Shown piece after piece: positions 16,251 through 53,351 of a DNA stretch of 64,000 nt. Under the pieces are notes generated by a model. That model was not told the DNA's origin, searched no databases, and saw nothing but the letters and a program-made list of their open reading frames with translations. Location: the NCBI RefSeq assembly GCF_011305995.1, contig NZ_CP049910.1, positions 620,001 through 684,000 on the forward strand, in the 5' to 3' direction. Origin of the DNA: Diaphorobacter sp. HDW4A. Its GTDB lineage: Bacteria; Pseudomonadota; Gammaproteobacteria; Burkholderiales; Burkholderiaceae_C. Numbering within the stretch: position 1 is the first letter of the stretch; each line of letters opens with the position of its first letter. Made by a program: the position numbers and the translations under genes.

Positions 16251-16279
16251 ATGAATCGTCGGCATGAGCCGGCATTCAT
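16251..16279 (+). promoter_or_regulatory. Leader hairpin abutting the Shine-Dalgarno site
   Basis: ATGAAT...CGGC pairs with GCCGGCATTCAT with one bulge and an ATGA loop, ending directly before aaggag. It resembles other gene leaders in this element where a hairpin abuts the ribosome-binding site. Confidence 0.45.
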
Positions 16280-16292
16280 GAAGGAGCGAACC

Positions 16293-22450: not shown

Positions 22451-22458
22451 GGTCAACC

Positions 22459-22506: not shown

Positions 22507-22711
22507 AAAATCAATATACATCCCGGGCGCAAAGGGGGCTGGCTCGCCTTCCAAGCAGCGCCAGGCGCAAGCATGTCGCGATGTTTCCGGGCGCCGTCTG
22601 GCTCTGGGGCTCCAGAGCCATGGCTGATTCGAAGACCGTGGCGAAGCCAGACCCTTGAACCGCGTTGAACAGGGGGCAAGCTGAAGGCTCTGATCCTTGG
22701 AGCCCGATGCC

Positions 22712-26006: not shown

Positions 26007-26724
26007 GGATTTTGACCAAGCGGGTTACCTGCGCAATCGATACGGTGAGAAGGATCCGCAGATCGTGCGCGAGCTCGAACACACCATGTTTCGTGCCGGT
26101 CTCGACGAGGCGCTGGGTCATGTGGCCAAGCGCAGGACACTCGGCTACGAGGACTTTCTCGCGGTGCATCGCATCCTGTTTTCAGCGTTCTACCCCTGGG
26201 CCGGACAGGATCGAGCGGCCACAACCCCCGACATTGCCATACGCAAGGGTGATACCTTGTTTTGTCACCCGTTCGATGCCCGACGGGCGGTGGAGGAGGG
26301 ATTGCGGATTGGGCAGGACAAGGCGGCGCTACGGCAGCGACCGGGCGAAGTGATGGGGCTGTTTGCCTATGGCCACCCGTTCCTTGACGGCAATGGCCGC
26401 ACGATGCTCGTCCTGCACAGCGAACTGTGCCATCGCGCGGGTTTCTGCATCGAATGGCAGCGCACACGTAAGACCGACTACCTTGCTGCACTCAGCGCGG
26501 AAATCGCATCTCCTGGCAAAGGCCATCTGGATCGCTACCTGCTGGGCTTCATTGGGATGTCACGCGACCGCCAGTTGTGGGGCGGCGTCATTGACGGCAT
26601 CCAGGGACTCAATGGCGGCAGCGTCGACGATGCGGTCGATGACGAGTATTCGGATGCGCATGTGCGGCAGAAGTACCAGGCGTTCGAGTTGAATCGATCT
26701 CGCTCCAAGGCTGGATCGTCTTGA
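25990..26724 (+). CDS. Fic/Doc-family toxin-like protein
   Basis: A 244-residue protein from GTG 25990 with the canonical Fic motif HPFLDGNGRT (residue ~129), the upstream FSAFYPWAGQDR loop typical of Fic flaps and a C-terminal acidic helix. Such proteins AMPylate or phosphorylate cellular targets. The overlapping DUF6088-type gene upstream is the likely antitoxin, so this is a candidate addiction module or abortive-infection system that stabilises the element. It is different in size and sequence from the larger Fic protein at 20,879. Confidence 0.8.
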   Translation: MFDPFKDFDQAGYLRNRYGEKDPQIVRELEHTMFRAGLDEALGHVAKRRTLGYEDFLAVHRILFSAFYPWAGQDRAATTPDIAIRKGDTLFCHPFDARRAVEEGLRIGQDKAALRQRPGEVMGLFAYGHPFLDGNGRTMLVLHSELCHRAGFCIEWQRTRKTDYLAALSAEIASPGKGHLDRYLLGFIGMSRDRQLWGGVIDGIQGLNGGSVDDAVDDEYSDAHVRQKYQAFELNRSRSKAGSS

Positions 26725-36144: not shown

Positions 36145-37185
36145 TCAGAACACGGACAGATCGACCGTGCCGACTACTTTCCGCAAGTCGAGTTGCTTCG
36201 CTTTGATGAAAGTCAGGAACTGGGTGGCCAGATCGTCGCTGTCAAACGTGATGCGCATGCCAATCTCTGGCGGTCCGTAGTTGTAGGGGTCTTCGCCGTC
36301 AATGCTCACGAATCCGGCATGTTTAAGGATGTCCAGCTCTCCCTTGAGGTCTGCGCCCCGATACTCGCGTTCCACCTTGCTGTAAAGCGCATGTGTCCAT
36401 GCGTCCTGGAACCGGCGGGATTTTCCCGTCTCTCTGCGTTCATAGAGCATGACCAGGAATTCTCGGGTGATCCTTGGCAGTCGCGAGAGGCGTTTTCCAA
36501 GCCTCTGGAGCGCCTGACGGATCTCCTTGGTCTCCTTGTCATTTAGATCGGCGCCGACCTCATCGCGCAGGTAGTCGATGAAGGCTTCGCCGTTGCCCAC
36601 CTTGGGCGTAACCCGAGCCTCCCACTTGTCGTACCCCGAGGTGGGATATTTCCCTTCCTCGTTGGGGACTTCAAGCTCGACCTTCAGACGGGCGATCTCG
36701 GTCCGGATCAGTTGGTGCAGCTTCTGCAGCGCGTCGATTGGCAGGCCCACCGTCTTGCGCGCCAGATCATCCATATCCCAGATGTTGTCGACACCAAAGT
36801 GATATGGGGCGCACAGCGCAGGGTCCAGTGTGTAGGAGCCTTGCTTCCTGCCAACCACCAGTACGACGATTTCAGTGAACTTGGCGGCCTGGCCGCCAGT
36901 GATCTTTTGCAGTGTCGAGTGCACCTTGGCCGCATCCGACCGTGATGTCACCTGAATTCCGAGCTTGAGGTTTTCGTCCCCAAGATCCAGCCCGGGTTCA
37001 TTGGAGCGCTCCTGATTGAGGTTCTGCAGATGGCTGCCAAGAAGAACATTCAGGATGTCCCGGAAGAAGTTCTCGGCATAGACCGTCAAGTCCGTCAGAC
37101 CCAGCCTGTTGCGCATCGCTACCTGCTGTGCGACGGTGCTGAGTTCGTCAATGATTTCGCCGATGTAGTGGCCGCGTGTAATCAC
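36145..37185 (-). CDS. SMEK-domain protein
   Basis: A 346-residue protein from GTG 37185 with aaaggaa in range. The N-terminal ~140 residues (TRGHYIGEIIDELSTVAQQV, ENFFRDILNVLLG, LKLGIQVTSRSDAAKVHSTL) match the SMEK domain, which I recall as a small alpha/beta, nuclease-like-fold domain in bacterial conflict proteins. The C-terminal part is helical and ends in a winged-helix-like segment (LDILKHAGFVSIDGEDPYNY). The gene starts 26 bases after the Cys/His-rich 37,212 gene: a two-gene operon with the look of an anti-phage module. Function unproven. Confidence 0.75.
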   Translation of the reverse strand: MITRGHYIGEIIDELSTVAQQVAMRNRLGLTDLTVYAENFFRDILNVLLGSHLQNLNQERSNEPGLDLGDENLKLGIQVTSRSDAAKVHSTLQKITGGQAAKFTEIVVLVVGRKQGSYTLDPALCAPYHFGVDNIWDMDDLARKTVGLPIDALQKLHQLIRTEIARLKVELEVPNEEGKYPTSGYDKWEARVTPKVGNGEAFIDYLRDEVGADLNDKETKEIRQALQRLGKRLSRLPRITREFLVMLYERRETGKSRRFQDAWTHALYSKVEREYRGADLKGELDILKHAGFVSIDGEDPYNYGPPEIGMRITFDSDDLATQFLTFIKAKQLDLRKVVGTVDLSVF

Positions 37186-37211
37186 GGGATTCCTTTGTCG
37201 TTGTGTGGCGC

Positions 37212-38204
37212 TCAGGTGATGAGGACGATCTGCTTCTTGAACTTTGGCGTGAGCGTCAGCTTGTGGGCCACATAGGTGATGGCCCGCGACCGGTCGCGTT
37301 TGTCGGGGGCGGAGTTCTCGACGGGGCCACTCACCTTCCAGAGACCGAACATGACAATCTGGGCATCTGGCGGGAAACCACCGAGCCAGGAAGCATCGGC
37401 GTGCGCGATGCTGACCTCGAACGACTCCACCCGAAGGGGATCATCTGTCTTGCGATACAGCGGCCGGCAGTTGAGGAAGCTGCTCTTGTACCCGGCGCCA
37501 GTGGGCGGCTGATGGAAAGACCGCACTGAGCCGACCAGGGCAACTGGATAGGGGTTGTTGCCGCTCTTGGCAACCAGTTCCCAGGCTTCATCGAAGCGAT
37601 CATGCTCGAAGAAGAACTGTTTCCAGGGGAGCCGCTTGGTGCCCAATCGCAGGAGCAGTTCGGCGGCAAGCAGCGTGTCGGATTCGCACATCGCGCGCAG
37701 GACCAGGATGTCCGCCGTGGTGCGTAGATAACTGTCGAGCCGCTTGTCCGAGGCGATCACCTCGGTTGCCGTCTTGGTCGTTCCGGCGGCGGGGCCGCTG
37801 CCATTGACTGTCGGCGCATTGCCCGACAGTCCGTGCTTGCGAAGTCCATTGTGCAAGGCGAGCAGACGCAGTTCCCGCTTCCCGTCTTCCAAGGCGTTCA
37901 GAAACTCCGGGTCTGATTGCGCCGCAATGATCTTCAGGCTGCCCGAGGCGTCGTATCGGCACCCTGCGGCATGTTCAGACCCGCGGGTCAGGCCAATGTA
38001 GGCGGGGACATCGACAGGCTCGATGCGATTGGCTCTGTTTTGTTGGTAGCGGGGGACAAACCGGACATCGCAGCCACATAACGGATCGTCGCAACGGAGA
38101 TCCGGCGCGGTACCACCCCCATCCGTCATGCCTTGCAGTTCCTCGACCGTGTGACGGTGTCCATGGCGATCCCGTGCCGCGCGCATCTTGATGCCTTTGC
38201 TCAT
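37212..38204 (-). CDS. Zinc-finger-like protein, partner of the SMEK protein
   Basis: A 330-residue protein from ATG 38204 (MSKGIKMRAARD) with aggagg 11 bases upstream. The N-terminal segment CDDPLCGCDVRFVP followed ~40 residues later by HAAGC forms a likely Cys/Cys/Cys-His/Cys metal site. The middle is helical (LLALHNGLRKHGLSG, RAMCESDTLLAAELLLRLG) and the C-terminal ~100 residues are beta-rich. The family is unrecognised. Its position immediately upstream of the SMEK gene suggests a sensor or effector subunit. Confidence 0.65.
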   Translation of the reverse strand: MSKGIKMRAARDRHGHRHTVEELQGMTDGGGTAPDLRCDDPLCGCDVRFVPRYQQNRANRIEPVDVPAYIGLTRGSEHAAGCRYDASGSLKIIAAQSDPEFLNALEDGKRELRLLALHNGLRKHGLSGNAPTVNGSGPAAGTTKTATEVIASDKRLDSYLRTTADILVLRAMCESDTLLAAELLLRLGTKRLPWKQFFFEHDRFDEAWELVAKSGNNPYPVALVGSVRSFHQPPTGAGYKSSFLNCRPLYRKTDDPLRVESFEVSIAHADASWLGGFPPDAQIVMFGLWKVSGPVENSAPDKRDRSRAITYVAHKLTLTPKFKKQIVLIT

Positions 38205-38242
38205 GTCGTCGTCGTGCCTCCTGAAGTGATTGGTTCTGGAAA

Positions 38243-38596
38243 GTGTGCCATGCGGTGAATGCCGAGGCACCGTTTCAATGCGTCGTGCTCCGGACTTCTC
38301 CCGGCAGGCGTTCGTCGAGAAACAGGACAACGGAGCGGAGCCTGGGGGGCTGGACGCCGGGTGCGCTGGTATCGCCGCGCCGACTCGGCCACCGCGAGGC
38401 CATCCAGCGCTTGTGCGCCGAGTTCGACGAAGACGGCCCGGATTGTGGCTACAACGCCGTGATCCAGGACTACGCCAGCATCTGGTGGAAGCAGGCGAAC
38501 AGCGACCCGAACCTCACCCGGTTTCCCGACCATCACCGACAACTGGCGGCGCGCCTGAAACGCATGACGGGCCGCACCCATTCGACAAAGGCCTGA
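38243..38596 (+). CDS. Hypothetical protein, possibly 5'-truncated
   Basis: The plausible coding part is the C-terminal ~75 residues (HREAIQRLCAEFDEDGPDCG, then IWWKQANSDPNLTRFPDHHR); upstream of about 38,380 the frame looks non-coding, so this may be the 3' remnant of a longer gene. It ends two bases before the next ATG, suggesting expression with the 81-residue gene. No family is recognised. Confidence 0.35.
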   Translation: MCHAVNAEAPFQCVVLRTSPGRRSSRNRTTERSLGGWTPGALVSPRRLGHREAIQRLCAEFDEDGPDCGYNAVIQDYASIWWKQANSDPNLTRFPDHHRQLAARLKRMTGRTHSTKA

Positions 38597-38910: not shown

Positions 38911-40668
38911 ATGGACACACCGAACCATCCCACCCTGCCGCTGCGCCGCATCGTGCAGGGCAAGAACCCCCGCGAATACTTCGACCCGGCCGAAATGGCC
39001 GAGTTGGAGGATGGCCTGCGCGCTGCCGGCCGCGTCATCCAGCCCATCCTTGTTCGCCCGATCCCCGGCACCGACCGCTACGAAATCGTGGCGGGGGAGC
39101 GCCGCTGGCGCGCCGCCCAGACCGTCTTCGGCGACAACTACGACATGCCCGTCGTCATTGAGGCACTGAGCGACGAGCAGGCCGAAGCCTTCGCCACCAT
39201 CGAAAACCATCACCGTGCCGCCATGTCGCACGCCGAGGAAGCACAAGCCGCCCGCAGCCAGTTGATGCGCCACAAGGGCGACAAGGACGAGGCGGCGGCA
39301 GCGCTCGGCTGGAAGCCCGAACTGCTGGAGCGCCGGCTGGCGCTGCTGACCTGCACGCCTGCCGTGTTGAAGGCGCTCACGCACCGCCAGATTCAGTTGG
39401 GCCACGCCGAACTGCTCGCTGGGGTGCCGCCTGAGAAGCAGGACACCGTGCTGACCGGCGTGATCGCGCACAAGGTGCCGGTGGGCGTCTTGAAGGAGCA
39501 GCTTGGCCGTTTCGCCCGCCGTCTGGCCGACGCCATCTTCGACACCGCGCAGTGTGCGGCCTGCCCGCACAACTCGTCCCGCCAGTCCGGGCTGTTCGAC
39601 GCGAGCCTGGGCGACGGCTTCTGCCAGCACCCCACGCACTACGACGAACTGACGCAGCAGGCCGTCGAGGCCAAGGCCGCGAGCTTGGGCGACCAGTACC
39701 CCGTTGTCCGCATCGTCAGGGCGACAGATGGCTTCTCGCCGCTGCCTGTGGCCGAAGATGGCGCGCTTGGCGTTGGCCCGGCGCAGTACGCGGCCTGCAA
39801 GGGATGCGCCTCCTTCGGCTGTGCCGTTTCGGTCTTGCCGGGGACGCAGGGCGAAGTGATGGCCTCGCTGTGCTTCGATGCGGCGTGCAACAGCCAGAAG
39901 GTCGCCGCGTGGGTGAAGACACAGCGCGAGTGCACGACGCAGGAGAGGGAGGCCGGCAAGGCCGAGGCCCAAGGCGGCAAGCGCCAGCCGGCGTCAAGGA
40001 CGAATGCCAAGCCCGCCTCCGCGCCGAGCAACAAGACGCCGCAGCGCGTCGTGGACTACCGGCTCATGCAGTGGCGCAAATGGGCCGCGAAGGAACTCAT
40101 GGTGCAGCCCGAACGCAACCGGCGCGTGATGGTCGCGCTGGCGCGCTTGGGCCGGGCCCGTGACGTGCGCAGCACCGAGTACGGGCAGGCGGCGAGCCGG
40201 ATCGCCGGCGCAGGTGCGATGGAGGGAACGGGCTTTCGCGGCCTGCTGCAAGAGGTCGATGCCATCGACGCGCAGCACCTGGAGCGGCTGACGCTGGCGA
40301 TCACGGCCGCCGCAGCGTTCGGCGTGACCACACAGGATCTGGAGGCGCTGCTGAACTATCTCCGGGTCGATGAAGGCAAGCACTTCAAGTGGGAGGCCAC
40401 TTTCCTTGAACTGTTCACCTTGAGCGAGCTAGAGGCGCTGGCCGTCGAAGTGGGCCTCAAAGCGAAGATGGGCGCGAGCCTCTACAAGCTGGCCCGCGAG
40501 AAGAAGAAAGCCGACTTCATCAAGGCCCTGCTCGCCGTGCCGAACTTCGCCTACGAGGGCACCGTCCCGGCGGTCATGCGCTATCCACGCAAGACCGAGC
40601 AGCCCACAGTCGAACCGCTCGACCCCGATGCGGCAGAGGAAGCGGAGGACGCCGCCCTGGCGGCGTGA
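38911..40668 (+). CDS. PRTRC-system ParB-family protein
   Basis: A 585-residue protein; ATG 38911 has aggag 7 bases upstream. The N-terminal ParB/Spo0J domain has NPREYFDPAEM and AGERRWRA (the CTP-binding GERRxRA box, residues 62-68), followed by a helix-turn-helix region (AEEAQAARSQLMRHKGDKDE). Two Cys-rich parts follow (CAACPHNS and CKGCASFGC), likely zinc-binding, a feature of the PRTRC ParB subfamily. It is the first gene of the PRTRC (ParB-related, ThiF-related) cassette and probably binds a centromere-like site for partition or regulation of the element. No ParA accompanies it here. Confidence 0.9.
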   Translation: MDTPNHPTLPLRRIVQGKNPREYFDPAEMAELEDGLRAAGRVIQPILVRPIPGTDRYEIVAGERRWRAAQTVFGDNYDMPVVIEALSDEQAEAFATIENHHRAAMSHAEEAQAARSQLMRHKGDKDEAAAALGWKPELLERRLALLTCTPAVLKALTHRQIQLGHAELLAGVPPEKQDTVLTGVIAHKVPVGVLKEQLGRFARRLADAIFDTAQCAACPHNSSRQSGLFDASLGDGFCQHPTHYDELTQQAVEAKAASLGDQYPVVRIVRATDGFSPLPVAEDGALGVGPAQYAACKGCASFGCAVSVLPGTQGEVMASLCFDAACNSQKVAAWVKTQRECTTQEREAGKAEAQGGKRQPASRTNAKPASAPSNKTPQRVVDYRLMQWRKWAAKELMVQPERNRRVMVALARLGRARDVRSTEYGQAASRIAGAGAMEGTGFRGLLQEVDAIDAQHLERLTLAITAAAAFGVTTQDLEALLNYLRVDEGKHFKWEATFLELFTLSELEALAVEVGLKAKMGASLYKLAREKKKADFIKALLAVPNFAYEGTVPAVMRYPRKTEQPTVEPLDPDAAEEAEDAALAA

Positions 40669-40694
40669 GCGCCGCAGCCACTGGAAAACCCCCG

Positions 40695-40733
40695 ATGCCT
40701 TCGTAGCATGGTCTTCGAAGGCATTTCTTTTTT
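40695..40733 (+). terminator. Terminator-like leader between PRTRC ParB and E
   Basis: ATGCCTTCG and CGAAGGCAT form a perfect 9-bp stem with a 12-base loop and a run of tttctttttt, ending directly before aaggag of the PRTRC E gene. It may partly end parB transcription or act as a leader hairpin for E. Confidence 0.65.
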
Positions 40734-40746
40734 GAAGGAGCGTGAC

Positions 40747-41247
40747 ATGACCCTGTTTGCAGAACTCTATGCGCTGGCCCTGACCGCGACGCTGACCATG
40801 ACGGTGAGCGCCGACGAGAAGTCGGGCCGGCTGACCGTGAATGTGATTCCCAAGCCGCGCAAGGACGTGAGCGAGCCGACGCTGACGCAGCCCCTGAGCC
40901 TGACGGCGACCCCGCAGGAATTCGATGAGGGTTTCATCGCGGCGCTGACCGGCTACCGCGAGGTGCGCCAAAGCCTCGCGCAGCAGGCGGAAGCGACCAA
41001 GGAGGTGATCGAGGCGGCGAAGGCCGCTTCGGTGAAGAAAGCCAGCGATGCGGCGAGCAAGGCCGCCAAGTCCGGTGCCGCCACCGGCGTGACCAGCAAG
41101 GTGGCGAGCCCCGCGAACATGCCTGTCCAGGCGACGCCCGCAGAGGATGACGACGAGGGAGCCGACACCGCCTGCACGAGCGCCACGCCCGCCGCTGCGG
41201 CAACCGCAGCAACGGCGGGTGCCGAGTCCTACGACCTCTTCGGTTGA
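40747..41247 (+). CDS. PRTRC-system protein E
   Basis: A 166-residue protein from ATG 40747 (aaggag 7 bases upstream). The N-terminal ~75 residues are a conserved beta-rich domain (DEKSGRLTVNVIPKPRKDVS, LSLTATPQEFDEGFIAALTG). The rest is an Ala/Lys-rich helix and a low-complexity tail ending in SYDLFG. It matches the PRTRC E family in position, size and N-terminal pattern; biochemical role unknown. An adaptor or substrate role in the ubiquitin-like pathway is speculation. Confidence 0.8.
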   Translation: MTLFAELYALALTATLTMTVSADEKSGRLTVNVIPKPRKDVSEPTLTQPLSLTATPQEFDEGFIAALTGYREVRQSLAQQAEATKEVIEAAKAASVKKASDAASKAAKSGAATGVTSKVASPANMPVQATPAEDDDEGADTACTSATPAAAATAATAGAESYDLFG

Positions 41248-41287
41248 GCGCCACCGAAGCGCCGCGACGTGGGCTTGCAACCGCCCC

Positions 41288-41342
41288 TTCGGTTGAGAGA
41301 CTGGATTCCAAGGCGGTCGAAGGCGACCGCCATCTCACCGAA
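41288..41342 (+). promoter_or_regulatory. Two-stem leader of the PRTRC C (Ubl) gene
   Basis: An inner hairpin GGCGGTCG/CGACCGCC (41312-41319 and 41324-41331, loop AAGG) is enclosed by TTCGGTTGAG and CTCACCGAA. It ends just before aaggag and ATG 41360. Confidence 0.5.
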
Positions 41343-41359
41343 CCAAGGAGCAAAACACC

Positions 41360-41827
41360 ATGTCGATTGCAGTTCTCGAAATCAGGCGATCCTTCCGCTA
41401 CAACGGCATCATGCTGCCGGACGTGCCGGGGTTCGAACCCCGCGAAGTGCGCGACCTCTACAGCGCGCAGTACCCCGAACTCGTGAGCGCCGAGGTCGAG
41501 CCCGGCGAGGTGCGCGACGGCGTGCAGGAGTTCAATTTCCGCAAGGCGGTCGGCACCAAGGGCGCAGGCGTTGCGCCTGCCGGGGTGCAGGCCGAAGGCG
41601 GCGAGGCCGGCCCGCGCCTTGCAGCCCTGTTGGCGACGATTCAGGCCGACGAGGCAGGGGCGAGCGGCGCGCAGTCCAAGTTGTCCGCCGCGCTGTCGCG
41701 CCGTAGCGTGCTGGCCCGTTCGACGGCGATGAGCCGGTTCGCCCAGGCCACCCTGGCGAAGCCGCACCTCGATGCGCGCCCGCACCGCTCGGCGGCGACA
41801 AGCGACATGCTGGCGCCGGTGGCATGA
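41360..41827 (+). CDS. PRTRC-system protein C (ubiquitin-like) with long C-terminal extension
   Basis: Residues 1-68 form the compact beta-grasp-like PRTRC C / Prok_Ub domain (FRYNGIMLPDVPGFEPREV, YPELVSAEV, FNFRKAVGTKG). Family members I recall are ~70 residues and end near that final glycine. Here 87 further residues, Ala/Ser/Arg-rich, follow Gly68. A ubiquitin-like protein would be activated by the ThiF-like E1 at its C-terminal glycine, so the tail would have to be removed, probably by the JAMM protein A, or this copy works without exposure of the glycine. ATG 41360 has aaggag 9 bases upstream; the stop overlaps the F gene by 4 bp. Confidence 0.8.
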   Translation: MSIAVLEIRRSFRYNGIMLPDVPGFEPREVRDLYSAQYPELVSAEVEPGEVRDGVQEFNFRKAVGTKGAGVAPAGVQAEGGEAGPRLAALLATIQADEAGASGAQSKLSAALSRRSVLARSTAMSRFAQATLAKPHLDARPHRSAATSDMLAPVA

Positions 41828-42906
41828 CGCCGAACCTGAACATCGGCATGGACAGGCCAGTCTTCGCCGCGATGCCCATCCTGGCGCTGCCTCAACTGAG
41901 TGGGAAGGTGCCGCTGTCGGTGGCCTCGCGTTCGCAGGCCAAGGCGAACGCGGGGCTGTGCCGTTGCCTGATCGATGCGGGCATCGTGCATGAGGATGCG
42001 CTGCCCGCGAACGAACCCGATCCGCTCAAAGCCTGCCAGCAGGCTATCGACGCCTGGATCAAGCGCCTGATCGGGCCGCTGCACTGCCTGCAACCCCGTG
42101 TGGCGATCAACGTGCTCGACGAGCACCAGCACCACCCGGCCAGCCGAGAAGGCAAGCAGAGCGCCTACGCCTACCTCGACCTGTACTGGTGCGAGTACCA
42201 CGAGAGCGAATGGCCGGTGGGCCGGCAACTGGAAGCGCTGAATACGGCGATGCCGGGCCTCGGGGCCACGGTGTTGCAGGTGCTGCGCGAGCAGAGCCGC
42301 TACGTCTATCCCGTCTTCACCCCCGACATTGCCGACGACGTGTCGTCCTATCTGTACTGGCAGGGCGAGTCGGACGAAGAGGCCGCGCTCGACATGATGT
42401 GCGAGGACGACAACGAAGCCGACCGGGAGGCCATGCGCGACGAAATGGTCACCCGCGCAATGCTCGACGCCGCCTATCCCGAGTGGGCGCGGCGCTGGCT
42501 GGTGCGACCGGAGAAGGGGAGGCGTCGGCGCAAGGGCGAGGCGGCCCTGCGACTCTGCGATCTGCGGCGTGCAGCCAAGACCCTGACCGACCCTGCGATG
42601 CGCGCCATCGTCGCCGACGCACTGGCGCTGTCCAAGCTGGCGCTGGACGACAGCTTCCGGCCCGACATCGACGGCGAGTACATCGGCTTCGGGGCCGTGC
42701 TGTCCTGGGACGAGGCCGACATCACGACGCGCATCTACGACGACCTGCTCAACCTCGCGCACCAGTCCGAGTTCTGCGACCGCATGGGCGAGGCAGTGAT
42801 CTCGCTCGACGACCCCGGCGCGCTCGGTGCTTGCTTTGCCCGCCTGGGCCTGCGCTTTGAGGCCATCGCGCTGATCGACCGCTTGATTCACGCCCTGAGC
42901 GACTGA
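41824..42906 (+). CDS. PRTRC-system protein F
   Basis: A 360-residue protein whose ATG overlaps the C stop by 4 bp. Acidic and helical, with DVSSYLYWQGESDEEAALDM and a basic patch (RPEKGRRRRKGEAAL). Order and length match PRTRC F. No catalytic motif is evident; it may be a scaffold or substrate-binding subunit. 26 bases separate it from B, where a small hairpin (CTGAG...CTCAG) overlaps the next ribosome site. Confidence 0.8.
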   Translation: MTPNLNIGMDRPVFAAMPILALPQLSGKVPLSVASRSQAKANAGLCRCLIDAGIVHEDALPANEPDPLKACQQAIDAWIKRLIGPLHCLQPRVAINVLDEHQHHPASREGKQSAYAYLDLYWCEYHESEWPVGRQLEALNTAMPGLGATVLQVLREQSRYVYPVFTPDIADDVSSYLYWQGESDEEAALDMMCEDDNEADREAMRDEMVTRAMLDAAYPEWARRWLVRPEKGRRRRKGEAALRLCDLRRAAKTLTDPAMRAIVADALALSKLALDDSFRPDIDGEYIGFGAVLSWDEADITTRIYDDLLNLAHQSEFCDRMGEAVISLDDPGALGACFARLGLRFEAIALIDRLIHALSD

Positions 42907-42932
42907 GACTGTTCTCAGGAGGTCATTCCAAG

Positions 42933-43682
42933 ATGAACGAAGCCGAGTTTTCCATCCACACCCCGACCGAGAACGTGCTGACGCTCGATCAGGCGGTGCT
43001 GCTCTACCACGGCCGCAACGGCGGCGCGCTGGCCACCGTCCACGAGGTGATGACCGTGGACGGTGCGCCGGTGATCGGCGCGGGCCGCGCCATGACCGCG
43101 CAGGCGGCACGCGAACTGGCCGCAGCCTTGCTCCAGCGGGTGGCCCACAGCGGCTTCCTGCCCGAGACGGTGCTCTACGTGCATGGCGACCTGATCCTGT
43201 GGTGGGTACCGCCTGCACGCCGCCACATTGCCTTCCGGGTGGATGGCGACCATGCCGAAGCCTTCGGCGGTGGCGAGCGCGGGGAGACGGTGCCGCTGCC
43301 GGGGCTGGTCTTCGCGGCATCGAGCCGGACGTGGGGCGTTTGGGCCGTCAAGGGAAGCCGCCGCCCGACGCCGCAGACCCCGCTGTACCAAGCCCCATTC
43401 TTCAACGTCAATGGGCAGGGCGGTATCTGCCAAGGCAATGTGCCGAAGCCCGAAGGCACCACGGTGGAGAAGATCGAAGCCTGGAACGATGCCTTCTTCC
43501 GCTCCTACTTCACCCACCCGAACGTGACCGGCAAGCTGCTGCGCTACCGGGGCGGCGCCTATGCCTTCTGGCGCGACATGCTCGACCGGCGTTTCGCCCG
43601 CTTCCCGGAGCGCGTGCTGGTCGATGTCAAGACGACGCTGGGCGGGCTGCTCGGAGAAAAAGACCGCAAGGGGGCCGCATGA
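42933..43682 (+). CDS. PRTRC-system protein B, E2-like
   Basis: A 249-residue protein. A beta-rich N-terminal half precedes a conserved single Cys in GGICQGNVPKPE (Cys166), the position expected for a ubiquitin-conjugating-type thioester cysteine in the prokaryotic E2-like families placed beside E1-like, JAB and Ubl genes. Later LRYRGGAYAFWRDML is also typical. ATG 42933 has caggagg 9 bases upstream. It would receive the Ubl from ThiF and pass it to a target. The E2 label is by family resemblance; activity is untested here. Confidence 0.8.
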   Translation: MNEAEFSIHTPTENVLTLDQAVLLYHGRNGGALATVHEVMTVDGAPVIGAGRAMTAQAARELAAALLQRVAHSGFLPETVLYVHGDLILWWVPPARRHIAFRVDGDHAEAFGGGERGETVPLPGLVFAASSRTWGVWAVKGSRRPTPQTPLYQAPFFNVNGQGGICQGNVPKPEGTTVEKIEAWNDAFFRSYFTHPNVTGKLLRYRGGAYAFWRDMLDRRFARFPERVLVDVKTTLGGLLGEKDRKGAA

Positions 43683-44380
43683 TGGACGTGCGCGATCAAG
43701 CCTTGCTGGCCTCCTGCCCGGTGGTGGCCGCACCGCGTTTCAGCCCGCTGCCGGACATGGCCAACGGCCAGCGCATCATCGTGGCGAGCAACGGCTGGTT
43801 CGTCCAGACCCGGCTGGACTGGCTCGACTGCATCACCGCACTGAGCCTGGATACCCCGGCGATGCGCCTGCCCTACGGTGAAGTCCGGGAGCACCTGCGT
43901 TTCAGCTTCGGCCAATTGCCGATCCCGCTGATCGAGGCGTTTGTCGCTCATGGCCGCAAGCACCTGCCCGATGAAGCCGCTGGTGTGCTGATCTACTCGC
44001 GCGGCACCGGGCGGCTGCGACTGGCGTTCTGCGAGGCAGTGCGGGCCTCACCCGTTCGCATCGACTACCGAAGGCCACCGATGGCCGACGACGAAACCGT
44101 GGCCGTGGACCTGCACACGCACGGACGGGCTCCGGCGTTCTGGTCAGCCGACGACGACCGGGACGACCAGGGCATCAAGGTGGCGGGGGTGTTCGGTCTG
44201 CTGGATCAGCCCAAGCCGATGGCGCGGTTCCGGCTGGTGATCAACGGCCTGTACCAGGACTTGCCGCGCCACCCGTGGCCGGGGCCTGATGCGTTTGCGG
44301 ACAGGGTGGACGGCGAGGAATCCGCCCCTTGGCCGAACCGCTGGATGCGCAGCGTCATCCGCCGCTGGACAGGCGCTTGA
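43679..44380 (+). CDS. PRTRC-system protein A, JAMM/MPN+ metallopeptidase
   Basis: A 233-residue protein. The zinc motif is complete: Glu99 (DEAAGVLIYS) and H146-T-H148-x7-S156-x-x-D159 (HTHGRAPAFWSADD), the exact H-x-H-x7-S-x2-D JAMM signature of deubiquitinases. It overlaps B by 4 bp. In Ubl pathways JAMM proteins mature precursors or reverse conjugation; with protein C extended past its glycine, a processing role is attractive. It differs from the element's RadC, which is a separate JAMM branch. Confidence 0.88.
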   Translation: MMDVRDQALLASCPVVAAPRFSPLPDMANGQRIIVASNGWFVQTRLDWLDCITALSLDTPAMRLPYGEVREHLRFSFGQLPIPLIEAFVAHGRKHLPDEAAGVLIYSRGTGRLRLAFCEAVRASPVRIDYRRPPMADDETVAVDLHTHGRAPAFWSADDDRDDQGIKVAGVFGLLDQPKPMARFRLVINGLYQDLPRHPWPGPDAFADRVDGEESAPWPNRWMRSVIRRWTGA

Positions 44381-44431
44381 AAGCGGCCCCCGGCGCGGGA
44401 CACTGAGTGCAACACGTCATGGAGGCTGTGC

Positions 44432-45271
44432 ATGGAACATCGAATTGATCCCCGACTGTTGGAGCGCCGGGTGCGTTGCCATCTGGTCGGGGTGGGGGGC
44501 AATGGCGCGCAGATGGCGACATGCCTTGCCCGGCTGGACATTGCGATGCGCGCCCTCGGCCACCCGTACGGGCTGCATGTGCAGGCCTTCGACGCCGACC
44601 GGGTGAGCGAGGCGAATGTCGGGCGGCAGTTGTACAGCGCCGCCGACCTCGGCCGATACAAGGCGCTGGTGACGGTGCATCGGCTCAACCAGTTCTACGG
44701 CCTCGACTGGGACGCCTACCCGATGCGCTACGAGGACTACGTGGAGGGGCACCGGATTTCAGGTGGCGCTGACATCCTGATCAGTTGCGTGGATAGCCGC
44801 GTGGCACGCCGCAACCTGCATCAGTTCCTGTTCCGCGATCACGTTCCGTGTCGCTACTGGCTCGACCTGGGCAACACGGAAACCACTGCCCAAGTGGTGC
44901 TGGGCCAGCCGGACAACCACGCTGTGCTGCGCAACGCGGGCGATGCCCCGAGACTGCCGTGCGTCACCGAGCTTTTCCCGGAACTGCTCGACGAGACGGT
45001 CGTGGAGGACAACCAGCCATCTTGCTCCGTTCGCATGTCGCTGGCCTCGCAGGGGCTGTTCGTCAATGACGTGGCCGTGCGCTTCGGTGCGCTGCTGCTC
45101 TACGAACTTTTCTCCCGTGGCGGACTGGGCCAGCACGGCGTGGTCATCAACCTCGACAGCAAGCGAACCGGCCCCATCGAGGTCGATCCTCGAACCTGGG
45201 CGCGCTTCGGATTCCGGCATTCTCAAGACGATGCCCACGCAGAGCCTGCAGCCGAGGAGGCCATGGTATGA
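44432..45271 (+). CDS. PRTRC-system ThiF-family (E1-like) protein
   Basis: A 279-residue Rossmann protein: nucleotide motif GVGGNG (residues 20-25), FDADRVSEANVGRQLY (the conserved Asp and the R...RQ adenylation motif), ISCVDSRVAR, and a conserved Cys region (NQPSCSVRMSLASQG). It should adenylate the C-terminal glycine of a ubiquitin-like partner with ATP, presumably PRTRC C. ATG 44432 has ggagg 7 bases upstream; it ends with a 4-bp overlap to a 66-residue gene. This is the last named member of the cassette. Confidence 0.88.
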   Translation: MEHRIDPRLLERRVRCHLVGVGGNGAQMATCLARLDIAMRALGHPYGLHVQAFDADRVSEANVGRQLYSAADLGRYKALVTVHRLNQFYGLDWDAYPMRYEDYVEGHRISGGADILISCVDSRVARRNLHQFLFRDHVPCRYWLDLGNTETTAQVVLGQPDNHAVLRNAGDAPRLPCVTELFPELLDETVVEDNQPSCSVRMSLASQGLFVNDVAVRFGALLLYELFSRGGLGQHGVVINLDSKRTGPIEVDPRTWARFGFRHSQDDAHAEPAAEEAMV

Positions 45272-45468
45272 AGGATTGGAACGTGTGGGTCAGCCGTGAA
45301 GGGTGCGGTGTGGTGATCGGCACGGTGTCCGAGGAAAACGAGTCGCTGGCCCGATGCGCGGCGCTTTCTCGCTACGCGGTTGCCGAAGAAGAACTCGCTT
45401 CGGGGGCGGTGCCATCCATGAGATGCGCCATCCTGCCCGACGAGGATTTCGGGGTGTCTCCGGCGTAG
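45268..45468 (+). CDS. Small hypothetical protein, end of PRTRC operon
   Basis: 66 residues overlapping the ThiF stop by 4 bp (MKDWNVWVSREGCGVVIG), with two further Cys. Its coupled position suggests a cassette-related role, but no family is recognised. Confidence 0.6.
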   Translation: MKDWNVWVSREGCGVVIGTVSEENESLARCAALSRYAVAEEELASGAVPSMRCAILPDEDFGVSPA

Positions 45469-45575: not shown

Positions 45576-45926
45576 ATGGCACGCAAACGCACCCTGCAAG
45601 AGATCGACCGGGAAATCGCCAAGCTGAATCAGGAGGCGGATGCCATCCGCGCATCCGAGAAAGCAGAAGTGGCGGCCAAGATGAAGGACGCCATTGCCTA
45701 CTATGGCTTCACGGCCGCCGACCTCGGTCTGGCTCGCGGCGGCAAGAAGGAGGCGAAGGCCAGCACCAAGGCCAAGCCGAAAGCGGGCAGGGGTGCTGGC
45801 AGCGCCCCGGCACGCATCAAGTACAAGGATGATGCGGGCAACGCATGGTCGGGGTTTGGCCGCAAGCCCAAATGGTTCGTCGAGGCGCTGGCCAGCGGCA
45901 AGACGGCCGAGCAACTGCTCGCCTAG
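45576..45926 (+). CDS. H-NS-family nucleoid protein
   Basis: A 116-residue protein. An N-terminal dimerisation helix (LQEIDREIAKLNQEADAIRA), a Lys/Ala/Gly linker and the C-terminal DNA-binding motif YKDDAGNAWSGFGRKPKWFVE form a typical H-NS-like xenogeneic silencer of the betaproteobacterial type. Mobile elements often carry such 'stealth' H-NS to limit the fitness cost of their AT-rich DNA and host regulation. It lies between the PRTRC cassette and an unknown small gene. Confidence 0.88.
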   Translation: MARKRTLQEIDREIAKLNQEADAIRASEKAEVAAKMKDAIAYYGFTAADLGLARGGKKEAKASTKAKPKAGRGAGSAPARIKYKDDAGNAWSGFGRKPKWFVEALASGKTAEQLLA

Positions 45927-46411: not shown

Positions 46412-47614
46412 TCAGCGCTCCTCGGGCATCTCTTCATCGCCCGGCGTACTCGGCTTCGCGTCTGGCGGCTGGGCCTTCTGCGCCGCTTGCCGCGCCAGCA
46501 GTCCCCCTAAGTAAGCTCCCGAGGCGCGGGGGCGATTGTGGCCAGCCAAGCGGGCAGCCGAAAGCCTGGCTTGCGCATCCACATCCGGGGGCACGTCCGT
46601 TCTGCCGCGCACCGGGGGTGCAACCCCGGCCTTCGCGCTGTAGTGGTCGATCAATGCTTCATGCCGCAGACCGTGCGACGTGGCGCCCAGCCCTTCCTTG
46701 GTGAGCTGAAAGCGTCCCATCACGTAGTCGAAGCGCCGCAGGTTGCGATCCAGGCTGCGGCGGGGATCGCCCATGTGTGCGTCGTCATCCGTGGCCAGCG
46801 CCTGGGCGAAACGCAGCGCCGCCATGCGCTGCGCTGAATCCAGCGGGACGAAGCGCAGCCGCCCCCCTTTCGCGCCTTCCTTGATCCGCACGTAGCTGTC
46901 GGCCTGTCGTTCTTCGGACGGCAGCCCCGTGGCCTCGAACGGCACCACGCAGCGATGCGGTCGGAACATGACCGATTCCTTCCTCCGCAGGCCAAAGGCG
47001 CGCATCAGCTTGAGCGACGCTCCGATGTAGCGGTCGTAGAGGCACACCTCTTCGATCACCGCGTCGATGTCGATGCCGGCCGCCGTCCAGCTCTTGTCGC
47101 GCTCGGCGTTTTCGTGGCGCTGGTATTCGGCGGGCGTCAGGCCGTAGTGATCCGGCTTGCGGATGAAGCCCGGCTTGCCCAACCACATCGCCAGTCCCCG
47201 CAGGAAACTCAGGTAGGTCTGGATCGTGGCCGGCGCCAGCCGCTCTTTCTGCCAGACGGCGACCATGGCCCGGATGTGGCGATCCCCCAGGTTGCGCGGG
47301 TCGGGCACCATCTTGAAACCGGCCTTCTGGTGCAGGTCGCGGAAGAAGCGCCGCAGGAAGTCGGCGCGCTCCTGCCGGGTCTTGTGCGAGACGGTCTTCT
47401 CCCGTGCGGTGTGCTGGGCGTTGTACAGGGTGATCAGCAGGTCAAGCACACGCATGGGATCGGCGTGGCCGGGCCGCAGCCGTTCAAGGGCTTGCTCCGG
47501 CGACAGGGTGGCGCGCTCCTGGTCGCGGCGCGGCTGGTGATGGTGGGCGTCACGCCACGCGCCCAGGGAACCCTGGACACGGCGGGGGGCGTGTTGTGTG
47601 TTGAATCTGGACAT
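46412..47614 (-). CDS. Second tyrosine recombinase (integrase-domain protein)
   Basis: A 400-residue protein from ATG 47614 (MSRFNTQHAPRR) with cggaga 7 bases upstream. A SAM-like N-terminal DNA-binding part (TIQTYLSFLRGLAMWLG) is followed by a catalytic domain with MRAFGLRRKES (first Arg), SHGLRHEALIDHY (H-x-x-R) and LAGHNRPRASGAYLG (second His and likely nucleophile Tyr). It resembles plasmid/ICE integrase-like proteins rather than the P4 integrase at the element end. It may resolve dimers or act at another site. It lies between the H-NS region and the ParM-like operon. Confidence 0.8.
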   Translation of the reverse strand: MSRFNTQHAPRRVQGSLGAWRDAHHHQPRRDQERATLSPEQALERLRPGHADPMRVLDLLITLYNAQHTAREKTVSHKTRQERADFLRRFFRDLHQKAGFKMVPDPRNLGDRHIRAMVAVWQKERLAPATIQTYLSFLRGLAMWLGKPGFIRKPDHYGLTPAEYQRHENAERDKSWTAAGIDIDAVIEEVCLYDRYIGASLKLMRAFGLRRKESVMFRPHRCVVPFEATGLPSEERQADSYVRIKEGAKGGRLRFVPLDSAQRMAALRFAQALATDDDAHMGDPRRSLDRNLRRFDYVMGRFQLTKEGLGATSHGLRHEALIDHYSAKAGVAPPVRGRTDVPPDVDAQARLSAARLAGHNRPRASGAYLGGLLARQAAQKAQPPDAKPSTPGDEEMPEER

Positions 47615-48819
47615 GGCAAATCTCCGACAGCAGTGCCGTGAGCCGTCCCGGCGGCGCACAGCGGGAATGGGGTGGAATCCATCGGTTCATCGCCTCGCGG
47701 ATTCCGATGCGCGGGCGATGCGTGGTCAGGTGTTTCAGCAAGGCGTGCGACCACGAGCGCGCCATGCCTACCCAGGGGTTTGCCGGTGAGGCGCGGGATG
47801 CGCGTCAGCCGACTCGGTCGTTCTTAAAAATGAACACGGTGATCCGTCTCGCTTTCGCATTTCTGCGTTCGTCGAGAGTTGGGATGCCGTCCCGCCTCAT
47901 GGGCCGGGAACAACATCGGCGCCAAGGTCTGGCCTTGCGCGCCATGGGGGATCAATCCTCTGAATGCGTAGCGTCATCCCCCTGCATGGGTCCGCCCCTT
48001 GACCGAAAGTCCAGGGCAGTGCGAGGTTCACGAGCGAGGGGCACATGGGGAGCCCAACAAGGGGCCAACACAGCCATGTGCTGCGCGAAGTGCGCGTGCT
48101 CGAAGGGATGACGGGAACAGCGGCGCGGCATCAGGTGCCGGCCGGGGAACTGCTCGAACGCAGGACTCGTTCTCGGGGAACGTCTGGCAGATGACTGCCA
48201 GCAATGCACTGCGCTGCTCTACGGGGGAAACACTTCGGGCATGGGCTCAAGGGGCCATGCCGAGCCCGATTCATGGATCGGGACTTGAAGAGGCGGGTAA
48301 CGACCGCAACGCCTTTCGCTCCGCGATGGAGCAGGCCAGGAGGCCTCGGGAGACTGTAGTTCACACCCAGGCCGCGATCGGGTCAATGACGAGCAGGGCC
48401 GCGCCACCCACTTGACGCCAGAACGGCGGCGTTTGCGGGTGGCCCTTGAAATTGCAACGCGAGGGGCGCTTATTTTTGGAAAGCCCTCCGGAATGGCCCG
48501 CCGCCTGGGGTTGACATTGCTCTTGCCTGCCTCTGGTTTTGATCGTGAGGGTTTCGATGCCCATTGACCCCTGGGAGCGCCCTCGGCGCTGAAAGCGTGG
48601 TCTTGACGACGTCCGATCCAGTGAGACCGTAGTCCGACACGGAAGACGCGGGGCGGCGTGGTCGGAGGTACTCGACCTGCACACGGCCTCGGCTCGTATC
48701 GGCTGGGAACACAGTCCGAGCTGATTGCGAGAACGAGGCTTTCCCCAGCGATTTCCGTGTGGAACGGTCGCATCGACAAACCGATGCTGACCCCTCTCGA
48801 ACCCATACAGGAGTCATTC
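47615..48819. other. 1.2-kb intergenic region without a supported gene
   Basis: No convincing coding sequence; open frames here are compositionally odd with no family resemblance. It carries a 21-bp dispersed repeat (48293-48313) and a stable stem near 48,402-48,442 (GCCACCC with GGGTGGC). It separates the minus-strand recombinase from the plus-strand ParM-like operon and may hold their promoters, a centromere-like site for the ParB or ParM systems, or a degraded gene. Confidence 0.45.
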
Positions 48820-49848
48820 ATGGACTTTGTCGTCAGAGCCGTCGACGTCGGCTTCGGAAACACCAAGTACGTCATCAGCGCGTCCGGCAGCGAAATTCGC
48901 TGCGCCAGCTTCCCGTCAGTCGCCTATCCAAGCATGCGGGAACCGTCCGCCCAGCCCGGCTACGAGCGACGCAAGACGGTGGCCATCCCGATCAACGGTC
49001 TCTTCTACGAGGTCGGTCCAGAGGTCGAGCTGGCGGCGGATACCTTCCGCGCGACCCAGATGCACGACCGCTACACCGAGACGCCCGAGTACATGGCGCT
49101 GCTGCGCGGCGCGCTGGCCCTGATGAAGCAGCCGTCGATCGACCTGCTGGTCGTGGGGCTGCCCGTGGCGGCACTCACTACGAAGAAGACCGCACTCGAG
49201 AAGGCCGTGACCGGAACCCACGACATCGGAAACGGCAAGACCGTGGTGGTTCGCAAGGCCTTGGCCATCGCCCAGCCCCAAGGCGCCCTGGTGGACTTCG
49301 CCGTCCAACATGGCAAGGGCGCCACCATCGAGCGGGAGCAGAGCCTGATCCTCGATCCGGGCTCCCGGACCTTCGATTGGCTGGTGGCCAGGGGCATGCG
49401 CCTGGTGCAGGCCAAGAGCCATTCGGTGAACCGGGGCGTCTTCGACATCCTGCAGGCTATTGCGGCCGAGATCGGGCACGACATCGGGACGCCGTACAAC
49501 GACATCGAGGCCATCGACCTGGCACTGCGCACGGGCAAGAACCCGGTGATCTACCAGAAGCCCTACGACATCTCCCGAGCCATGCCCATGGCGCATTCGA
49601 TCGCCCAGCAGGCCGTGGCGTCGATGATGCGCTGGATCGACGCGAGCTACAGCTTCCAGAACATCATCCTGGTGGGTGGGGGCGCATACCTGTTCAAGAA
49701 GGCGGTGAAGGAGGCTTTCCCCAAGCACAAGATCCTGGAGGTCAAGGATCCCTTGCATGCCAACGTCCGCGGTTTCCAGATCGCCGGCATGAACCACGCG
49801 CCCAAGCTCCTGGGAGCACCGGTGGTCGCGGTGCAGGGAGGTGCGTGA
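48820..49848 (+). CDS. PRTRC-system protein D / ParM-StbA-like actin
   Basis: A 342-residue actin-fold ATPase: phosphate-1 VDVGFGNTKY (residues 8-17), phosphate-2 ILDPGSRTFDWLV and adenosine motif ILVGGGAYLF. It matches the PRTRC D / StbA family, filament-forming segregation proteins. ATG 48820 has aggag 7 bases upstream. In most PRTRC descriptions D may lie outside the main cassette, as here (3.5 kb away). It heads a five-gene operon with overlaps. Likely substrate: element DNA segregation. Confidence 0.87.
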   Translation: MDFVVRAVDVGFGNTKYVISASGSEIRCASFPSVAYPSMREPSAQPGYERRKTVAIPINGLFYEVGPEVELAADTFRATQMHDRYTETPEYMALLRGALALMKQPSIDLLVVGLPVAALTTKKTALEKAVTGTHDIGNGKTVVVRKALAIAQPQGALVDFAVQHGKGATIEREQSLILDPGSRTFDWLVARGMRLVQAKSHSVNRGVFDILQAIAAEIGHDIGTPYNDIEAIDLALRTGKNPVIYQKPYDISRAMPMAHSIAQQAVASMMRWIDASYSFQNIILVGGGAYLFKKAVKEAFPKHKILEVKDPLHANVRGFQIAGMNHAPKLLGAPVVAVQGGA

Positions 49849-50150
49849 TGAACGACACCGTGTCCCCGAAGCTGGAAACGATCCGGATGCTATTCGAGCT
49901 GGATCGGGAGGATGACCCGCGGCTCTACGACGACCTGATCCGCTTCAAGAAGGGTACCAAGCGCATCAACCGCTTGCGTCTCCTGGCGCACGAGGCCGTG
50001 CTTGGGCAGTTCAGCCAAGCCGCAAATGGGGCGGGCGGCCCGGCGGTGCCCGTGCCGCCCGCTGCGGGGGTTGCAGTCAGTGGCGTGTCCGCAGCGGCTT
50101 TCGAGATGCCTGCGGCCGCTGACGTCTTTGCCGCGCCCCTCGAGAACTAG
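49848..50150 (+). CDS. Small adaptor-like protein of the actin operon
   Basis: 100 residues; its ATG shares one base with the actin stop. The N-terminal ~60 residues are charged and helical (LETIRMLFELDREDDPRLYD, then KKGTKRINRLRLL) and the tail is Pro/Ala-rich. By position it could be the ParR/StbB-like partner that couples the filament to DNA, but no ribbon-helix-helix is obvious. Confidence 0.6.
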   Translation: MNDTVSPKLETIRMLFELDREDDPRLYDDLIRFKKGTKRINRLRLLAHEAVLGQFSQAANGAGGPAVPVPPAAGVAVSGVSAAAFEMPAAADVFAAPLEN

Positions 50151-51998: not shown

Positions 51999-53255
51999 TC
52001 AGGCGGCCCGGCGCAGGGGTACGACGGTCCAGGGAAGTCCCTGTTCGCAAGCCAGGAGGAAGGCCGCCCACAACTCGAGTGCAGCCTGACGCTCCGGGAG
52101 GTAGTCGTACTGGTCGTAAATCTCTTCCATGCCTTTCAGCACATGGTTCAGAGATCTTTCGGACACCTCGTTGGAGACGCCCATGGCCTTCATGTGTGAC
52201 TTCACCGTACTCCGGGTGTCATGCGGGGTGAATCTCCGGATGTCCAGGCCACCTCTTTCAAACCTGCGGGTCAGCGCTGCCCAAAGTGTGCTGTTGCCGA
52301 CGTGGGTGTCCCCACCGAGTCTGGCGCGTCTGTGACCACGACGAGCGGGAAGAACCCAACGCGAGTCCCCGGCACACTTCTTCAGCTCCCGGAACCATGA
52401 AACGACTGTCGGGCACAGCGGTACTACGTAGCCGCGTCGCGTCTTCACCGTTTCTTCGGTGACGATCCAGGTGCCCTTGTCCAAATCCACGTTGGCCCAC
52501 TGCGCCTTCACAAGCTCGATCGTCCGCACGCAGGTTGCGAGCAGGATTCTGAAGGCGAGGGCGTTTTCGATGCCGATGGAGTTGATGTCTGGCAGCAGCG
52601 TCCGCAACTCGTCTTGAGACAGCATCAACCTGCGGCGTACGGGAGGACGTTGGCCAATGACCGAGATCAGATCAATTCCAACGGTTGGATTGACATGGAT
52701 GAGCCGTTTCCCGAGGGCATGGGCGAACAGCCGGTTGCAGGTCGAACGAAGCCGCTTGCACATCGTCCAAGTCCGCCCTGAATCGGCGATCATGCCGACG
52801 ATGTCTGCGGATGTCACGCTCGTGACCAGCATGGCACCGAGCTTGGGAATGATCACCTGGTCGAGGTCTGCGTTGCGGGCTTCCTGAGTGCTTTCCGCAA
52901 GTGCCACAACAATCTTCTCGCGATAGTCCTCGGCGAGCTCTCGAACACTCCAGGTGGTTCGGACGCGAATCTTCTCCTGCTTTTTTGTGATCGCGGGGTC
53001 GCCACCCTTGTCGATCTCAACGCGCTTTTCGCGTGCAAGTTGGCGTGCGGCAGGGAGGCTGATGTCGGGGTAGTTGCCCAGCGTCAGTTCTCTGGAGCGC
53101 CCTCCGAACTGGTAGCGGAGAACCCAGGTGGCCGTACCGGCCGCAGACAGGGTGAAGGTAAGCCCGTCGCCGTCGGTTCTGGCGATGGGTTCGCGTGCAC
53201 GCACCCAGTGCTGGAGCTGCACCGGCGTCAGTAGATTCTTGCCTCTTTTTGCCAC
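51999..53255 (-). CDS. int: P4-type tyrosine integrase of the element
   Basis: A 418-residue protein. The N-terminal DUF4102 arm-binding domain (LTLGNYPDISLPAARQLARE), core-binding domain and catalytic domain are present, with the first Arg (ATCVRTIELVKAQW), HDTRSTVKS, LNHVLKGM and the nucleophile Tyr in IYDQYDYL. GTG 53255 (VAKRGKNLLTPV) is chosen: ggagg 8 bases upstream; a longer TTG start exists. It reads away from the chromosome junction near 53.4-53.6 kb, the usual layout at the end of an integrated element. No tRNA is seen beside it; it may use a non-tRNA site near folA. Confidence 0.88.
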   Translation of the reverse strand: MAKRGKNLLTPVQLQHWVRAREPIARTDGDGLTFTLSAAGTATWVLRYQFGGRSRELTLGNYPDISLPAARQLAREKRVEIDKGGDPAITKKQEKIRVRTTWSVRELAEDYREKIVVALAESTQEARNADLDQVIIPKLGAMLVTSVTSADIVGMIADSGRTWTMCKRLRSTCNRLFAHALGKRLIHVNPTVGIDLISVIGQRPPVRRRLMLSQDELRTLLPDINSIGIENALAFRILLATCVRTIELVKAQWANVDLDKGTWIVTEETVKTRRGYVVPLCPTVVSWFRELKKCAGDSRWVLPARRGHRRARLGGDTHVGNSTLWAALTRRFERGGLDIRRFTPHDTRSTVKSHMKAMGVSNEVSERSLNHVLKGMEEIYDQYDYLPERQAALELWAAFLLACEQGLPWTVVPLRRAA

Positions 53256-53351
53256 CTTGATGTCCTCCGGGCGCTCTCGGGGGACGATAGGCCGAGGGCA
53301 TGTCTTCAACAGCTCTTTTGCTTCGAGCAGAGGCGCAACATCAACTTCTTA

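Follow-up and report, generated by a model that had tools for sequence, protein, structure and literature searches.

What does a cassette do that sets a ParB-family gene beside a ubiquitin-like conjugation pathway, and in what form is its ubiquitin-like protein (Ubl) made? The question is raised by a 64,000-nucleotide stretch of the genome of Diaphorobacter sp. HDW4A (hereafter the window; positions 620001-684000 of the 6.48-Mb contig NZ_CP049910.1), in which a PRTRC cassette begins at position 38911. An initial annotation, made from the letters of the window, proposed that protein modification by this cassette controls segregation, copy number or conjugation. The reading we favour is a different one: the cassette is probably a catalytically intact PRTRC Ubl conjugation module of mobile elements (Iyer et al. 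2006, operon type 6d), in which the Ubl protein PRTRC C is a precursor with the layout Ubl-GTKG-X, X being a small helical protein, and is cut by the JAMM metalloprotease PRTRC A.

Gene content and predicted enzymes of the cassette

All eight PRTRC families (ParB, E, C, F, B, A, ThiF and D) were found in the window above their curated NCBIfam cut-offs. Seven of them lie side by side on the forward strand between 38911 and 45271, beginning with a 585-amino acid ParB-family protein (38911..40668; TIGR03734, 710 bits against a cut-off of 279, E 1.7e-213; Pfam ParB_N and HTH_ParB) and PRTRC E (40747..41247, 166 amino acids ending in ..SYDLFG; TIGR03741, 101.5 bits, cut-off 38, E 2.3e-29; Pfam PRTRC_E). 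The Ubl domain of PRTRC C follows (41360..41563, residues 1-68, ending in ..AVGTKG; TIGR03738, 99.6 bits, cut-off 46, E 7.7e-29), with a single Prok_Ub domain at residues 7-66 (E 4.6e-17). The protein has 155 residues in total: the family domain stops at residue 68 and is followed by an 87-residue tail (41564..41827, ending in ..SDMLAPVA), which we read as a fused X because tails of this clade match separate X genes. Downstream are the alpha-helical PRTRC F (41824..42906, 360 amino acids; TIGR03742, 337 bits, cut-off 58, E 1.5e-100; alpha-hel2, PF14456), the E2-like PRTRC B with Cys166 and a downstream His195 (42933..43682; TIGR03737, 267 bits, cut-off 131, E 1.5e-79; Prok-E2_D, E 7.9e-50), PRTRC A (43679..44380; TIGR03735, 203 bits, cut-off 102, E 3.6e-60), in which DUF2016 (residues 4-75) precedes the JAMM domain (Prok-JAB, residues 83-185, E 2.8e-13), and the E1-like PRTRC ThiF (44432..45271; TIGR03736, 302 bits, cut-off 145, E 3.2e-90; Pfam ThiF). 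The eighth member, the ParM/StbA-like actin PRTRC D (48820..49848, forward strand; TIGR03739, 529 bits, E 3.4e-159, scanned from 48823), lies 3.5 kb downstream, beyond an integrase on the opposite strand.

The seven proteins thus stand in the order given by the initial annotation, each above its cut-off and with Pfam domains in agreement, and the set of Ubl, E1-like, E2-like and JAMM proteins that it called complete is so by family and by intact catalytic residues. The cassette it described is real and complete, but the description was not, since it overlooked PRTRC D and the tail of C. The repeated four-base overlaps it reported hold at C/F, B/A and ThiF/66-amino acid gene, where they read ATGA; the remaining junctions are gaps of 78 nt (ParB/E), 112 nt (E/C), 26 nt (F/B) and 51 nt (A/ThiF). 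The coupled 66-amino acid gene (45268..45468, forward strand) is an open reading frame with tblastn matches in 17 of the 87 related loci that we fetched, duplicates of one genome counted.

Cassette proteins were gathered with iterated profiles from 88 stretches, the 87 fetched loci and the window, and residues were compared after identical sequences had been collapsed and the frameshifted L027 and L105 and the short L028 excluded. In B, Cys166, Asn158 and Gly168 are invariant (82/82) and His195 is kept in 74 of 82. All 64 A proteins have the five JAMM residues E98, H145, H147, S155 and D158; adding one gives the 233-amino acid numbering, in which the initial annotation had correctly placed H146, H148, S156 and D159, as it had Cys166 of B, and in which the fifth residue is E99. 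ThiF retains GxGxxG, D54, N62, R65, K77, D121 and C198 in 79/79 sequences; invariance makes C198 the candidate catalytic cysteine. With their catalytic residues invariant, the enzymes of the cassette look intact and active. At the end of the Ubl, Gly68, its last glycine, is conserved in 72 of 73 C proteins and Lys67 in 69 of 73. In the window this glycine is internal because the tail follows, and the GTKG junction (residues 65-68, 41552..41563) is the predicted point of cleavage and activation.

An AlphaFold2 (AF2) model of C has the strand-strand-helix-strand-strand order of a beta-grasp at residues 9-62, a junction at residues 65-81 with predicted local distance difference test scores (pLDDT) below 50, and three predicted helices in the tail, partly well folded. 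In PRTRC E, a helix, three strands and a long helix were modelled for residues 3-103 (mean pLDDT 62), this N-terminal domain being followed by a long low-confidence linker and then the C-terminus.

Extension of PRTRC C and co-occurrence with PRTRC A

Nine of the 88 stretches were dropped from the comparison of C and A (L014, L027, L028, L029, L089, L091, L105, L109 and L127) on account of a C not found, a contig edge, a frameshift, or an incomplete B or ThiF, leaving 79, of which 76 are distinct. C is fused to a tail in 41 of these, all with A; no fused locus lacks A. Another 22 have A and an unfused C, five of them with 2-5 extra residues, and the 13 JAMM-less loci all have a C that ends at the terminus without extension. 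In total, C ends exactly at the GTKG-equivalent terminus in 30 of the 76. Among the dropped loci, L089 and L091 likewise lack both A and an extension, L028 is fused and has part of A, and L029 is fused in a sequence that ends before A could lie. The midpoint-rooted tree of B and ThiF holds 10 uniform extension clades and four JAMM-less clades, with nine parsimony changes for extension, eight for fusion and four for JAMM, and a dependent model of extension and A was better than an independent one (p 0.0075 when any extension counts, 0.026 when only fusions of 30 or more residues do). PRTRC A was absent from the whole genomes G244, G517, G715, G494, G075 and G1631 and from eight plasmid records, which between them account for all 15 JAMM-less loci. 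At L115, A is missing from a locus whose clade relatives have it, the whole genome is without PRTRC A and C is unextended; A has probably been lost there recently. Since all fused loci have A and all JAMM-less loci are unextended, A most likely matures the Ubl-X precursor.

Most loci with an unextended C have a small open reading frame, X, in the space before F, often starting a few bases from the C stop. Separate X genes end in an LP-rich motif (LPPSQALPPLP in L039, for example), and fused tails often end similarly (..SDMLAPLP, ..DSLLIPMA). Compared with fused tails of the window's clade, the separate X of L039 and L095 show 44% and 40% identity over 48 residues (E 3e-12 and 4e-11, obtained with a tiny database and composition correction off), and the separate X of L115 (3e-6), L013 (1e-5) and L011 (6e-5) match fused tails too. 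When a profile of the clade's tails was searched against all frames of the loci, it found L095 (2e-14), L039 (5e-12), L111 (1e-7) and L115 (3e-4), the next best being L011 at 0.046. In cyanobacteria, a separate and overlapping annotated gene of Pseudanabaena (L126) is what L016, L124 and L125 carry fused (E 1e-5 against the L016 tail). Judged by sequence, some separate X genes and fused tails are clearly homologous. The LP motif ends 25 of 30 separate X and 25 of 38 fused tails, compared with 24 of 417 other PRTRC C-termini and 1650 of 18,162 frames; the first figure is partly circular, because the motif was defined after both sets had been seen and X frames were picked with a similar score. 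The ratio of nonsynonymous to synonymous differences (pN/pS) of X was 0.24-0.66 in 11 of 12 pairs, several of which share members. Six X or tail sequences scanned had no match in Pfam or NCBIfam, and X is often missing from gene tables, those of the plasmids being incomplete.

From the sequences, which hold the domain identities, the invariant residues, the homology of some tails with separate X genes and the co-occurrence of extension with A, we infer a cut after GTKG, a thioester relay and conjugation to protein. C would be made as Ubl-GTKG-X and cut by A after GTKG into mature Ubl and X; ThiF would adenylate the exposed glycine and load the Ubl on its Cys198, and B would take it on Cys166 and hand it to one or more targets, from which A could also strip it. 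In other lineages, where a free-standing X gene parts C from F, C already ends at the terminus and A can be absent.

Several observations weigh against this scheme. The association between fusion and A, although strong in Fisher's test (p 9.7e-6), ignores kinship in that test and involves only four JAMM-less clades. Twenty-two loci have A and no fusion, so A must do more than mature fusions; in the eight JAMM-less plasmid records the absence of PRTRC A applies to the plasmid itself, the other replicons of the hosts not having been searched. At the Ubl terminus, L013 is an exception with alanine as last residue. Of 36 candidates for a separate X, only nine have a fused tail as match with an E-value of 0.05 or below, and three of those matches are weak (E 0.008-0.048 over 15-30 residues); one X pair has a pN/pS of 0.90, and control frames gave 0.51-1.25. 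The model of C has a predicted template modelling score of only 0.35 and no Foldseek match in the PDB under E 0.001: the beta-grasp fold, whose absence the initial annotation had named beforehand as a point that would refute its proposal, was modelled, with weak structural scores. Finally, a limited literature search found no experiments on PRTRC proteins.

Partition and other readings

The initial annotation placed the DNA-partition protein and the Ubl pathway in one cassette and proposed that Ubl modification governs the element's partition, copy number or transfer, a role that we regard only as a tentative possibility. Of the 80 loci with enough sequence, 63 have a ParB-family gene upstream, the actin-like D was found in 24 of the 88 stretches (L027 and L105 counted), and one paper places PRTRC among partition systems; in their relevant passages, PMC7466150, PMC12420198 and PMC3826726 only list PRTRC, either as present on an element or as a system for partition. 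PRTRC ParB is nevertheless missing upstream in 17 of the 80, where B and ThiF persist together, which speaks against a single cassette; absence was counted only with at least 6.5 kb upstream of B, six loci being too short and L027 and L105 left out. The 17 comprise eight phage loci, four cyanobacterial ones, L073, L095, L101, L120 and L121. The phage loci, a Burkholderia phage with Mu-like gene names (L018) and seven viral contigs (L081-L087), have a fused C-X together with E, F, B, A and ThiF and no PRTRC ParB upstream; in three of the eight, a ParB-family frame with a weaker match lies roughly 2-3 kb beyond B (E around 1e-37). The profile for E detected it in 77 loci; the five that lack it despite enough sequence include four cyanobacterial ones, whose sets have a gene at the E position that is E-like by position only. 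In more distant loci the F profile failed, and F was assigned from position and annotation. On these counts the core appears to be E-C-X-F-B-(A)-ThiF, often accompanied by ParB, and the link to partition is loose. A gene of about 100 amino acids after D (49845..50150, forward strand) starts at GTG 49845 or ATG 49848, overlapping the stop of D; it has tblastn matches in 22 of the 87 fetched loci and is a possible partition partner of D. Neither this frame nor the 66-amino acid gene matched Pfam or NCBIfam.

It is improbable that C-X stays uncut as one two-domain protein and that the link between tail and JAMM reflects shared ancestry. Such a protein would fit the partly well-folded tail, the purifying selection on it (pN/pS 0.13-0.63 in the eight pairs tested) and the modest phylogeny-aware p values given above. 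The junction, however, keeps the exact GTKG end that is exposed as a C-terminus in other lineages and is modelled with low confidence, the extension occurs in 10 uniform clades that all have A, and the cyanobacterial tail exists as a separate gene in Pseudanabaena.

Defence-like neighbours and weak matches of ThiF to PADLOC E1-E2 models suggest a system for defence against phages or for conflict between elements, comparable to Bil or CBASS Cap2. Just upstream of ParB, on the reverse strand, a SMEK-domain protein like the Aga-type restriction model and a neighbour without assigned function (36145-38330; domain and PADLOC scans) are likely defence cargo; further away, domain scans identified a type IIG restriction-modification protein, two Fic proteins and an SMC-like ATPase (59-2890, 20879-22456, 22697-25189 and 25990-26724). 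We consider a defence function unlikely, given that ThiF was the only one of six proteins scanned (ParB, C, F, B, A and ThiF) to match PADLOC and that phages themselves carry the set.

A sulfur-carrier pathway like ThiS/MoaD with E1-like enzymes and no protein conjugation is very unlikely: ThiF and C are related to proteins of that pathway, JAB proteins also occur in sulfur and siderophore operons according to the part of Iyer et al. 2006 concerned (PMC1779556), and in the JAMM-less plasmids L079 and L119 a gene 1-5 kb past ThiF bears the annotation 3'-phosphoadenosine 5'-phosphosulfate (PAPS) reductase family, but B is a dedicated E2-like protein with an invariant Cys166 and no PAPS reductase-type gene name appears in the other annotated stretches examined, where many genes are unnamed.

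A replisome-directed system, in which E would dock on the sliding clamp of the element or host through a conserved C-terminal Leu-Phe/Trp motif and recruit the Ubl machinery, is a long shot that we keep as a weak lead only. Of 27 PRTRC plasmid records, 13 have a dnaN match, one of them below the family cut-off, and in seven of the 13 the match lies no more than about 6 kb from the cassette (0.9 expected; simulated p 2e-5, or a combined p of 5e-4 without the match below cut-off), with distances taken from annotation tables and all records treated as circular; one DnaN query matched at least 67 records in the whole collection, several of them chromosome-sized. Among 74 E proteins, 48 have L[FW] in their final six residues, which makes it widespread but not universal; in each of five other PRTRC families 0-1 of 55-82 proteins have it there, kinship being uncorrected. 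The E-like genes of two cyanobacterial sets end in QLTLF and QLSLF, the consensus for clamp binding. Against a clamp stand the 14 of 27 records without dnaN, the absence of a clamp among 20 flanking window genes scanned, and the absence of QLxL[FWL] from the last 60 residues of all 74 E proteins. If true, this would be a bacterial counterpart of PCNA modification.

Other features of the window are an H-NS-family protein after the 66-amino acid gene (45576..45926, forward strand; Histone_HNS, E 1.9e-12), the reverse-strand integrase-like gene between the cassette and D (46412-47659; Integrase_1 by domain scan, tblastn matches in many related loci), a Gp3-like recombination directionality factor found by domain scan (16251-17585) and a second integrase, with Arm-DNA-bind_3 by domain scan (51999-53309, reverse strand). 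The latter adjoins dihydrofolate reductase and thymidylate synthase genes, and the island therefore probably ends there.

Relation to known systems and possible significance

Among the named relatives of the cassette (23 loci) are Zoogloea, Acidovorax and further records, most of them beta-proteobacterial. Genomes with the B family (TIGR03737) number 12 of 399 in the order, 15 of 389 in the family (14 of these above cut-off) and three of 369 in the class (two above cut-off), counts that include the window's own genome; a family sampled around G244, where that genome is not counted, gave four of 298. By tblastn, B matches 309 of 72,556 plasmid records (121 over 80% of B) and two of 50,697 phage records; the phage B matches seven IMG/VR contigs and the window B none. 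A Deinococcus plasmid (L014) has two B genes and ThiF, no C by profile and a small gene ending in an LP-rich motif, and two Shewanella plasmids without A (L080, L119) have a BRCT-domain gene between B and ThiF.

This kind of cassette is known by name and by prediction. In the passages of Iyer et al. 2006 on the subject (PMC1779556), operon type 6d was already predicted to be a ubiquitin-like conjugation system and the JAB protein to process and deconjugate. The window shares with type 6d, as described there, a Ubl with C-terminal glycine, an alpha-helical protein, a JAB with N-terminal domain, an E1, and an E2 with cysteine and downstream histidine; loci from the genera of the species listed (Rmet, Posp., Rfer, Ppro, Ana, Avar) were examined here. 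Unlike C-X of the window, C is described in those passages as a small standalone protein, and they make no mention of X, a Ubl-X fusion, JAMM-less sets, or ParB, E and D. The families of the NCBIfam PRTRC system (TIGR03734-03739, 03741, 03742) are all present in the window, but X, the 66-amino acid gene and the gene after D matched none in NCBIfam or Pfam. With Bil (BilABCD) the cassette shares Ubl, E1, E2 and JAMM proteins, the JAMM protein there cutting the Ubl before use, whereas BilA is described as having two Ubl domains in place of one Ubl and a helical X without family match (PMC11354881, in the part concerned). Membership in Bil (6e) was rejected: C has one Prok_Ub domain in place of a tandem, and its tail has no Pfam match and is helical in the model. 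Type II CBASS Cap2/Cap3 was set aside too, E1 and E2 being separate genes here, and the cassette proteins scanned included no cGAS-like enzyme.

In eukaryotic ubiquitin-ribosomal protein fusions, the Ubl is N-terminal to a small unrelated protein that is freed after the terminal glycine. C-X has the same order of parts and differs in that X matches no family scanned and that fused and separate forms alternate between lineages. The Ubl-X fusions, their separate-gene counterparts and their association with JAMM are the new elements of this study; no report of X or of a Ubl-X fusion was found in the relevant portions of PMC1779556, PMC11354881, PMC13373217, PMC7466150, PMC12420198 and PMC3826726, and other papers, notably on Bub, may hold one. 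Together, the fusions, their counterparts and the JAMM association turn a general prediction into a single test, the cutting of C by A after Gly68. The comparison of fusions also gives the likely true end of the tag, which is needed to detect conjugates, and adds a component, X, for which searches of Pfam and NCBIfam gave no match. If the scheme is true, the PRTRC cassette would offer a bacterial parallel to the synthesis of ubiquitin as part of a fusion protein.

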